Shown here piece by piece: positions 13,081-19,150 of a stretch of DNA of 32,295 nt. How positions within the stretch are numbered: position 1 is the first letter of the stretch; each line of letters begins with the position of its first letter. The notes beneath the pieces were generated by a model. That model saw only the letters and a program-made list of their open reading frames with translations. It did no database searches and was not told the DNA's origin. Source of the stretch: Acidobacteriota bacterium. Its GTDB lineage: Bacteria > Acidobacteriota > Blastocatellia > Pyrinomonadales > Pyrinomonadaceae. The DNA is taken from the NCBI GenBank assembly GCA_003223975.1, contig QHXS01000049.1, positions 1-32,295 of the forward strand. The letters are read 5' to 3'. Both the position numbers and the translations under genes were made by a program.

Positions 13081-15405
13081 ATGAAGTTGCGACACCTTGT
13101 CTTTGCCGCGCAAGTTCTCCTCATCACCGCTGTATTACAAGCAAATCCGCCGATCCAGTTTTTCAAACTACCGGCTGAGCCGCTCATCCGGATCGGTCTG
13201 CTAACGAATGCAAGTTCGGTTGCGATCACGACTTCGGACACCGAGCTTGTCGCGTCTTCGCTGGATGAACCGCAGAGATATCTGGCAACCGACCGGATCA
13301 CGGTATCGGCACGAGCTTACAGGCCGCCGACGTACGAACAGTACATTTTCGAAATTCAAAATATTCCCAACGCCAACGAAGCGAACGGTGTCGCCGCGGA
13401 AGTTCGCGAGCAGACCGGCGAAACGGCGCAGGTGAGCGTCGAAGAGGGGAAGGCGACGTGGAAGGTTTGGATCGGGGCGCCGAAAGAATCAAAAGAGGAA
13501 GCCGACGCGTTCAAAGCGATGCTTTCCGAAAAGGGCGTCGATGATGTTGTCGTCGTAGCCGAAACCAAGACCGTCGTGTCGAACGATGCGGTCGCGCTTT
13601 CGCAGCAGGTTAGAAACGCGGGAAAGTCTGAAGTTCGCAGTTTGGTGCGGTCGACGGGATCATCGTCTGTAACCAACTCGAATTATATCGACCCGAACTT
13701 GCGCGAAGTGATAGTAAGCGGACCAAGCGAGCCGGCTAAATATTCGTCGCTGAAATCAGTTTCGTTCGGTTCTTATAACGATCGGGTGAATCCAGTTCGA
13801 CTGAACGGAAAAGCGTATCGGGGAAAACTCGAAGTTTTTGTGAATTCTCGCGGTTCGCTAACGGTTGTCAATGTTGTGCCGCTCGAAGATTATTTGCTCG
13901 GTGTCGTTCCCTCCGAATTAAGCCTGCCGCAATTGGAAGCTCAAAAGGCGCAGGCCGTCGCAGCACGAACGTACGCGATCGCGAATCAGGACACTTACGG
14001 CAACAAGGGCTTCGACATGGTGCCGACGGTTTACTCGCAGGTGTACAAAGGCGTTTCGATCGAAACGGCGATGGGGACTCGAGCGGTCCGCGAGACACGG
14101 GGCATCGTCGCAACATATCAGGGCAAGCCGATAATGGCGTATTTCACTTCTACTTGCGGCGGCCGGACTGAGAATTCCGAGAACATTTTCGACCACGGGG
14201 AGCCGTATTTGCGCGGTGTTGAATGTTCGCTGGAGGGGCATCGACATTTCGACCCGTTCACGATCCGAACGGTCCGAATTCCCGCCCGGGTTCGAAGCGA
14301 GAGCAATGTCGAACTCGTCCGATTGATGTCCATCCTTGCCGTGAATGGATTTTCGCTCACGACAAATCAAATGACCGACGACTGGTTTGATAACGAACCA
14401 ACTGTTGGTGAAATTTCAAACTGGCTAAACCAGCTTGCATCGCGCTTCGGAAAAGTTTATCCAAATGTAACGCGCGAAACGGCGAAGCCTGCTGAGCTCG
14501 CACGCATTTTGTCGTCGATGATCTATACGCCCGGCGCGCCGGATACGCTGCTTAGTGATTCCGACGTTAATTATCAACTGGGTTTCGATGACGCGGGCGA
14601 AGTTCCGGTAGCAAGCCGCGCCGATATCGCGATGCTGCTGCGTGACGGTTATTTTTCGCTGCGTCCGGACATGACGCTTCAGCCGAATCGTCCGCTGACG
14701 CGTGCAGAATTCCTCCGCCTGATCCGGCAGATCCTTGAAAAACGAAAATGGACGCCGACTCTGCAAAGCGGACAAGCCAAGGCGACCGTCGACGGCAAAT
14801 TGGTTGTTAGGAACGGCAAAAGTGACCGCCAAATGATAGTTCGACCAGATGTGTTCCTTTTCAGAATGTTCGGCACTACGATGTATCCGGTTAGGGAAGC
14901 GGCGTTGATCGGCGGCGAGAATGTGCGGTTCCAAATGGACGGGTCAGGGGCGGTCGCATACCTGGAAATTGAACCGACCGAACAGACGACGGTTGCAGAA
15001 AATATGTCGCCGTTCACGAACTGGAATACGACGCTTTCCGCCGGCGAAGTTCAATCAAGGCTTTCGCGATACGTTCGCGGCATCGGCACGCTTTACGATG
15101 TGAATATCAAGACAAAAGGCTACTCGCGGCGCGCGGTCGAATTGGAGATCATCGGCTCGAATGGGACAAAAAGTTTGAAAGGCGGTGCGATCCGTTCGGC
15201 CCTTCGGCTTCGCGAACAACTTTTTGTTATCAACAAGCGATATTCTGGTTCGACGGTTGCTAGCTACACCTTCACAGGCCGCGGCTGGGGCCACGGCGTC
15301 GGCATGTGCCAGTACGGAGCGTACGGGCTCGCAAAAATGGGCGTGAAATACGACGAGATAATCAGGCACTACTACACGGGTGTCGACCTGACACAGGCGT
15401 ATTAG
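13081..15405 (+). CDS. Exported SpoIID/LytB-domain protein with SPOR domain and an SLH-like insertion
   Basis: SpoIID-type proteins are lytic transglycosylases that cut peptidoglycan stripped of stem peptides. The 774-residue protein has a signal peptide (1-21) and a SPOR-like region (about 85-160, EQYIFEIQNIPNANEANGVA through VWIGAPKESKEEADAFKAML) that would bind such glycans. The SpoIID domain follows from about 235: PLEDYLLGVVPSELSLPQLE, with Glu279 the expected catalytic acid, AQAVAARTYAIAN, and FTSTCGGRTENSENIF. The domain is then split by about 270 residues (385-655), including an SLH-like stretch (LTRAEFLRLIRQILEKR, 539-555). It resumes with the terminal signature GRGWGHGVGMCQYGAYG (733-749). 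The gene starts 35 bases after the M14 gene. Confidence 0.88.
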   Translation: MKLRHLVFAAQVLLITAVLQANPPIQFFKLPAEPLIRIGLLTNASSVAITTSDTELVASSLDEPQRYLATDRITVSARAYRPPTYEQYIFEIQNIPNANEANGVAAEVREQTGETAQVSVEEGKATWKVWIGAPKESKEEADAFKAMLSEKGVDDVVVVAETKTVVSNDAVALSQQVRNAGKSEVRSLVRSTGSSSVTNSNYIDPNLREVIVSGPSEPAKYSSLKSVSFGSYNDRVNPVRLNGKAYRGKLEVFVNSRGSLTVVNVVPLEDYLLGVVPSELSLPQLEAQKAQAVAARTYAIANQDTYGNKGFDMVPTVYSQVYKGVSIETAMGTRAVRETRGIVATYQGKPIMAYFTSTCGGRTENSENIFDHGEPYLRGVECSLEGHRHFDPFTIRTVRIPARVRSESNVELVRLMSILAVNGFSLTTNQMTDDWFDNEPTVGEISNWLNQLASRFGKVYPNVTRETAKPAELARILSSMIYTPGAPDTLLSDSDVNYQLGFDDAGEVPVASRADIAMLLRDGYFSLRPDMTLQPNRPLTRAEFLRLIRQILEKRKWTPTLQSGQAKATVDGKLVVRNGKSDRQMIVRPDVFLFRMFGTTMYPVREAALIGGENVRFQMDGSGAVAYLEIEPTEQTTVAENMSPFTNWNTTLSAGEVQSRLSRYVRGIGTLYDVNIKTKGYSRRAVELEIIGSNGTKSLKGGAIRSALRLREQLFVINKRYSGSTVASYTFTGRGWGHGVGMCQYGAYGLAKMGVKYDEIIRHYYTGVDLTQAY

Positions 15406-18280: not shown

Positions 18281-18309
18281 TTGATATCGGGCCCGAGCTT
18301 GGCTATTAT
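18281..18309 (+). promoter_or_regulatory. Strong sigma70-like promoter for the HinP1I-like gene
   Basis: TTGATA (18281-18286) and TATTAT (18304-18309) are separated by exactly 17 bases, each one mismatch from consensus. Transcription would begin near 18316, where a GGAG ribosome binding site (18316-18319) lies nine bases before the ATG at 18329. The gene therefore appears to be expressed on its own from the divergent intergenic region. Confidence 0.6.
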
Positions 18310-18328
18310 CAAGCCGGAGATTTTGGCG

Positions 18329-19150
18329 ATGCGTGCGACACGAACCTCATCCTTATTTTTGTTTTTTCTCATCGGAGCCTTTGCGTTCGTTTCGGCTCAA
18401 TCGCAAGCGATCAAGGAAGCCGTTGACCTTGGGTCGAAGACGGCGAAGGACGGATTTAAAAATGAAGACGAGATCAGAGACAAATTTAACAATTGGCGGA
18501 GCGATGTCGACGCGAAAAACTGGCTTGCGTCGATGAATTACAGGATTGGCGAAATCGAGAGTGTTATCGCCTCAAAACCGCACGGGGAAAAGGCCGATGT
18601 CGAGGTCAAGGTCAAAACAAGGAGCGGCGAAAAAACGGAAGGGATCTCGATCAAACTCGTCAGCAGCCCGACCGGGTTTAATCAGATCGACAAGCGCTGG
18701 TTATCGCATTACGTAAAAATGTGGAAGATCGGTGCCGATACCGAATACGCCCTCAAATTGTTTGTAGGCGAAATACCGCCTGTAAGACTGGGACGCGATC
18801 CGAGACGGATGTACCTTAACGAACTTGACCAGACGTCACAGGTCGCCGTAGTAGATTTTTTTACAATGCATAAAGAAGAGATAGTGTCTGACCTTTTTCA
18901 GGGCAACGGCGTTCATGCTGCCGGTTGGGTAATGGTAGCTTTCAAGGCAACCGCGAATACACGCTGGGCAATACGAACCTCGGCAGACACCATTAAGTTT
19001 TTCGGTGATGGAAAAGTTGAAATTACGCGTGCCGGCAATCTGAAGATCGGGCGTGTCACGATGCAGCGAAAAGGGGGCGATGGGGGCCGCGAGACCGCGA
19101 AGATGCTTCAGTTCAAGATCAATCCAGTTCAGCTATTTGATTTGAAGTAG
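18329..19150 (+). CDS. HinP1I-family type II restriction endonuclease carrying a Sec signal peptide
   Basis: The mature part matches R.HinP1I (recognises GCGC), as recalled, over its whole length. Landmarks are VDLGSKTAKDGFKNE (residues 32-46), GFNQIDKRWLSHYVKMWK (116-133) and VTMQRKGGDGGRETAKMLQF (243-262). A DPRRMYLNEL stretch (157-166) and a GWVMVAFKATANTRW stretch (199-213) lie between them. The catalytic core is Asp90, then 16 residues, then Ser107-Ile-Lys109; HinP1I has a Gln at the Ser position and a slightly longer spacer. In front lies a textbook signal peptide (MRATRTSSLFLFFLIGAFAF, cleavage after VSA at residue 23). The mature length of 250 is close to the 247 of HinP1I. The mature protein has no cysteine. 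No methyltransferase is nearby. The ATG is set by a GGAG nine bases upstream. Confidence 0.88.
   Translation: MRATRTSSLFLFFLIGAFAFVSAQSQAIKEAVDLGSKTAKDGFKNEDEIRDKFNNWRSDVDAKNWLASMNYRIGEIESVIASKPHGEKADVEVKVKTRSGEKTEGISIKLVSSPTGFNQIDKRWLSHYVKMWKIGADTEYALKLFVGEIPPVRLGRDPRRMYLNELDQTSQVAVVDFFTMHKEEIVSDLFQGNGVHAAGWVMVAFKATANTRWAIRTSADTIKFFGDGKVEITRAGNLKIGRVTMQRKGGDGGRETAKMLQFKINPVQLFDLK

Follow-up and report, generated by a model that had tools for sequence, protein, structure and literature searches.

Restriction enzymes are usually regarded as cytoplasmic and as partnered by a methylase. The closest described relative of the enzyme analysed here is R.HinP1I, a Type II endonuclease that cuts G^CGC (PDB 1ynm and 2fkc) and has D62, Q81 and K83, within an SD-x18-QxK site, as its catalytic residues. 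R.MspI (1sa3), which recognises another target, belongs to the same fold group. The secreted or periplasmic nucleases EndA, EndoI/Vvn and NucA act on double-stranded DNA and are non-specific. A paper on transformation in H. influenzae (PMC3145789) points to a difficulty with restricting the incoming DNA in the cytoplasm, namely that this DNA enters as single strands only. No description of an exported, secreted or periplasmic restriction endonuclease was found in the open-access literature, which is no proof of absence. A preliminary description of a DNA stretch from a member of the Pyrinomonadaceae (32,295 nucleotides, hereafter the window) proposed such an enzyme, and the locus was examined by comparison with its homologues.

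Methods

Homologues of the nuclease were gathered from contigs of the family, of the class and of GTDB, and a tree of 93 mature sequences was built by a quick search with SH-aLRT support values. Signal peptides were scored with a heuristic of our own in place of SignalP, requiring a net positive n-region, a hydropathy of at least 1.9 over 10 residues, and small residues at positions -3 and -1. The clade tested in this way comprised the genus of the window, one other genus of the family (represented by genome G007) and Planctomycetota. Observed/expected (O/E) ratios of GCGC were calculated against an order-2 Markov expectation.

The nuclease gene and its product

The only HinP1I-type gene of its genome is an open reading frame on the forward strand (18329-19150) encoding a product of 273 amino acids, the features of which are collected in Table 1. 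The product matched the Pfam family R-HINP1I (PF11463) over the whole profile (1-208 of 208; E = 7.3e-57; 192.6 bits against a cut-off of 25), and phmmer against the PDB aligned its residues 31-272 with 3-247 of the 247 residues of HinP1I (1ynm_A, E = 1.5e-67), so that the proposed alignment along the entire enzyme holds. For the mature protein, AlphaFold gave a model with a pLDDT of 91.5, which Foldseek matched to HinP1I (2fkc, TM 0.90) and to MspI (1sa3, TM 0.63, E = 3e-8); the modelled protein has the HinP1I/MspI fold. Identity with MspI, which has no signal peptide, is 12%. The likeness to HinP1I is full-length and includes the Asp and the Lys of its active site and the GFNQIDK and QRKGGD-GR stretches; unlike HinP1I, the window enzyme carries a signal peptide, has no linked methylase and shows SxK in place of QxK.

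Table 1. Features of the nuclease gene, in positions of the window
Feature	Position	Strand	Remarks
Sigma-70-like match TTGATA-17-TATTAT	18281..18309	+	weak
Putative Shine-Dalgarno GGAG	18316..18319	+	read from sequence; 9 nt 5' of ATG
Predicted Sec signal peptide, 23 aa, cleavage VSA↓QSQ	18329..18397	+	clade-conserved, 47/49 vs 0/43
Mature HinP1I-type endonuclease, 250 aa, no cysteine	18398..19147	+	PF11463, 1ynm, model; stop codon 19148-19150
Putative catalytic Asp90 = HinP1I D62	18596..18598	+	alignment, invariant in 61 sequences
S107-x-K109, replacing HinP1I Q81-x-K83	18647..18655	+	Lys invariant; Ser also in methylase-linked homologues
GFNQIDK (116-122) = HinP1I 90-96	18674..18694	+	G90, F91, N92, Q93, D95, K96 kept in both clades
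QRKGGDGGR (246-254) = HinP1I 221-229	19064..19090	+	family's most conserved stretch

The ribosome binding site of the preliminary description corresponds to the putative Shine-Dalgarno sequence. The promoter attributed to the gene fared less well: the TTGATA-17-TATTAT match is present, but its role as a promoter is doubtful, since the transcript would start at about 18316, inside the Shine-Dalgarno sequence, and three promoter-like sites were found against 1.2±1.0 in shuffled sequences.

The equivalents of HinP1I D62 and K83 were invariant in the aligned homologues. The position of Q81 is Ser throughout the signal-bearing clade and also in methylase-linked copies (e.g. L066-L072 and L090). At least 95% conservation in both the signal-bearing and the signal-less clade was found at 47 positions, including those of GFNQ-DK and QRKGGD-GR, and the equivalents of D62, K83, N92, Q93, D95, K96 and Q221-R229 are kept in both. 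Close relatives gave dN/dS values of 0.06-0.26 (about 0.1), showing purifying selection on the core of the enzyme. By its likeness to HinP1I, the exported enzyme would recognise GCGC. Four signal-bearing sequences (L062, L063, L065 and L116) carry insertions of 23-49 residues near HinP1I positions 70-74, just ahead of the SxK strand.

The signal peptide

The N-terminal extension, MRATRTSSLFLFFLIGAFAFVSA followed by QSQ, has an n-region of charge +2, an h-region whose 10-residue Kyte-Doolittle value is 2.85, and a cleavage site of the AXA type, that is, all three regions of the Sec signal peptide that had been proposed with cleavage at VSA↓QSQ. The heuristic was passed by 47 of the 49 distinct homologues of the clade and by none of the 43 HinP1I homologues from elsewhere (of the two clade members that failed, one is truncated by the end of its contig and one is borderline), and the extension is therefore not due to chance. 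Signal-bearing sequences with complete 5' ends have a hydrophobic extension of approximately 30-46 residues ahead of the GS-TAK motif; signal-less sequences (from Patescibacteria, Bacteroidota, Chloroflexota and others) start approximately 3-15 residues ahead of it. The sequence of the signal segment is highly variable, yet its character and its cleavage site (small-x-small↓Q, near-universal in the clade) are retained, which is the pattern expected of a signal peptide.

Among the observations named in advance as speaking against the preliminary description are homologues starting after the hydrophobic segment and transcripts showing an internal start. Homologues of the clade do not start there, and the window gene contains no ATG, GTG or TTG between the signal peptide and the onset of HinP1I homology, so no internal start is possible at the native position. 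The claim that the gene encodes an endonuclease of the HinP1I type behind a genuine Sec signal peptide, and hence a probably exported one, thus survived every refutation that could be attempted, and the presence of a signal-bearing HinP1I homologue is confirmed on firmer ground than was available to the preliminary description. Attachment as a lipoprotein or by a C-terminal anchor was considered and rejected for the window protein, which has no cysteine, as first described, and the C-terminus of which matches that of HinP1I. Mature proteins free of cysteine number 41 of 49 in the signal-bearing group versus 23 of 44 in the signal-less group.

Distribution and history of the locus

The nuclease gene was present in 37 of the 41 genomes of the window's genus, where it lies between the genes for SpoIID and MiaA, and a branch with 99% SH-aLRT support separated all signal-bearing sequences from the others. 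The SpoIID-domain protein of the window (13081-15405), which also has an S-layer homology domain, is a conserved neighbour of the locus. In G003, a relative from another genus without the nuclease gene, SpoIID is followed directly by MiaA, an empty site. In G007, of the same genus as G003, SpoIID is followed downstream by a HEAT-like gene, a C5 methylase gene, a signal-less R gene and a signal-bearing R gene, the last three lying in tandem (L120:3665-6253). As the simplest reading, we infer that a linked GCGC restriction-modification system was inserted at the SpoIID side in an ancestral member of the Pyrinomonadaceae, that its R gene was duplicated and one copy acquired a signal peptide, and that the methylase and the cytoplasmic R were lost in the lineage leading to the window's genus, leaving the exported copy alone at the site. 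G050, a genus member that lacks the nuclease, has YD-repeat/Rhs-like proteins with small exported neighbours between SpoIID and MiaA (L161:22-6000), an interval that may be a hot spot for insertions.

Outside the family, 18 of 170 genomes of a planctomycete order had the gene for the exported enzyme. The 11 planctomycete sequences in the tree formed one group (98%) nested in the clade of the window's genus, and in one member of the order the gene lies on a single contig of 8.9 Mb among planctomycete-looking neighbours (e.g. a DUF1559-type protein), the families of which were recognised by eye and are presumed. This nesting and these neighbours make a transfer of the gene to Planctomycetota likely.

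Methylases and GCGC content

A C5 or an N4/N6 methylase gene lies immediately upstream of nearly all signal-less copies. No methylase was found beside signal-bearing copies in the flanks examined, except at four planctomycete loci with N4/N6-like open reading frames 1.3 to 5 kb away, and no relics of a lost methylase were found at the signal-bearing loci. The linkage of methylase to R by which a Type II system is assigned was thus seen only in G007 and not for the signal-bearing copies of the genus, and we therefore place the enzyme in the HinP1I family, as a variant that is exported, rather than among the linked Type II restriction-modification systems.

A C5 methylase is absent in 16 of the 41 genus genomes. 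The idea that this figure first suggested, that the host has no protecting methylase, was overturned for the genus by an orphan PF01555-type N4-cytosine-type methylase with the motif SPPY, present in 39 of the 41 genus genomes and in none of 78 other genomes of the family. This methylase (G000:C112:3095-3988 in the window's genome; compare PADLOC oMTase PDLC03714) is the candidate for an unlinked partner in the same genome. It is 53-60% (about 58%) identical to methylases adjoining HinP1I homologues in Bacteroidota and relatives, a likeness that points to GCGC as its probable target. None of the 13 orphan-methylase loci read had a HinP1I-type gene nearby; the gene of the window's genome (L220) has a housekeeping-like neighbourhood, and G051 has two copies of the methylase. 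In Planctomycetota the orphan methylase was found in none of 170 genomes (E ≤ 1e-40), among them the 18 that have the exported enzyme, and protection of self by this methylase is therefore not required in general. A C5 methylase was absent in five of nine planctomycetes examined. There, export alone would have to suffice, or another methylase would serve.

The O/E of GCGC was about 0.4-0.6 throughout the genus and about 1.0 in sister genera (ranges 0.2-0.7 and 0.9-1.15). Fifteen genus genomes that have the gene gave 0.22-0.70, versus 0.90-1.12 in 11 genomes of other genera; the ratio was 0.65-0.73 in the window's own genome, and the values for CGCG and CCGG in the genus were near 1. In G007 (51 kb sampled) it was 0.09, with 0.00 for GGCC. 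The depletion is suggestive of a long exposure of the genus to a GCGC-cutting enzyme and does not imply that the exported copy is its current cause. It was rejected as proof of present activity, because four genus genomes without the gene still gave 0.54-0.68 and the difference in planctomycetes was small (median 0.57 with the gene versus 0.66 without); the depletion may thus be left over from the past or have arisen in another way. Within the genus, the values were 0.43 with the gene present versus 0.58 with it absent (p = 0.054, phylogeny ignored). No correlation of depletion with C5 methylases was found (p = 0.37). GGCC had an O/E of 0-0.03 in several family genomes of other genera (L149-L155; G009, G010, G011, G012, G015 and G018), which suggests that a GGCC restriction system is widespread in them.

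Discussion

The reading that we favour, with a probability of roughly 60%, is that the product is a catalytically competent double-strand DNA endonuclease of the HinP1I type (GCGC) that is exported by Sec, derives from a duplicated R and serves as a barrier outside the inner membrane, with export, target and role all inferred. The precursor would be exported by Sec and cleaved, and the mature enzyme, folding in the periplasm or extracellularly, would cut unmodified GCGC in double-stranded DNA outside the inner membrane. Its targets would be transforming or environmental DNA before conversion to single strands and possibly other exposed DNA, and the DNA of the host would be spared by its compartment. 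Transforming DNA of diderm bacteria keeps both strands up to the crossing of the inner membrane, and an exported enzyme would thus be free of the difficulty met by cytoplasmic restriction. The compartment would match that of EndA, EndoI/Vvn and NucA; those families are unrelated and lack sequence specificity.

In the window's genus, the unlinked cytoplasmic methylase probably modifies GCGC too, sparing sibling DNA. A system split between compartments, in which an exported R destroys foreign transforming DNA and a cytoplasmic, unlinked orphan GCGC N4-cytosine methylase spares that of siblings, is put forward tentatively, as somewhat less probable than not.

An exported nuclease could also fragment extracellular DNA for nutrients or for the remodelling of biofilms, its specificity being merely inherited and no self being discriminated from non-self. 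Such scavenging would accord with the planctomycetes, which have the exported enzyme without a relative of the orphan methylase and, in five of nine cases, without a C5 methylase, and with protection of the host by export alone. It appears unlikely, since a 4-bp cutter would leave pieces of a few hundred bp, presumably poor nutrition without other nucleases, and since the invariant HinP1I core residues are expected under selection for target specificity.

Less probable still is a cytoplasmic, unlinked restriction-modification system in which the orphan N4 methylase is the partner and the hydrophobic N-terminus is inefficient or only an inner-membrane anchor. The occurrence of that methylase in 39 of 41 genus genomes and the genus-wide depletion of GCGC, expected if the enzyme meets host DNA, would fit such a system, but the near-universal cleavage sites speak against it, as do the planctomycetes, which retain both signal peptide and enzyme without the orphan methylase. 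A domesticated, catalytically dead DNA-binding protein of the envelope, to which the change of Q81 to Ser across the signal-bearing clade might point, is very improbable, given that Ser occupies this position in methylase-linked homologues too, that the Asp and the Lys are invariant and that dN/dS is about 0.1.

If the favoured reading of an exported restriction endonuclease is true, the existence of a conserved lineage spanning two phyla, in a group of soil and water bacteria and in some planctomycetes, would show that restriction can take place beyond the inner membrane, where transforming DNA stays double-stranded. Export would also be a way to retain a restriction enzyme without a linked methylase, and G007 would still display the intermediate stage of the duplication.
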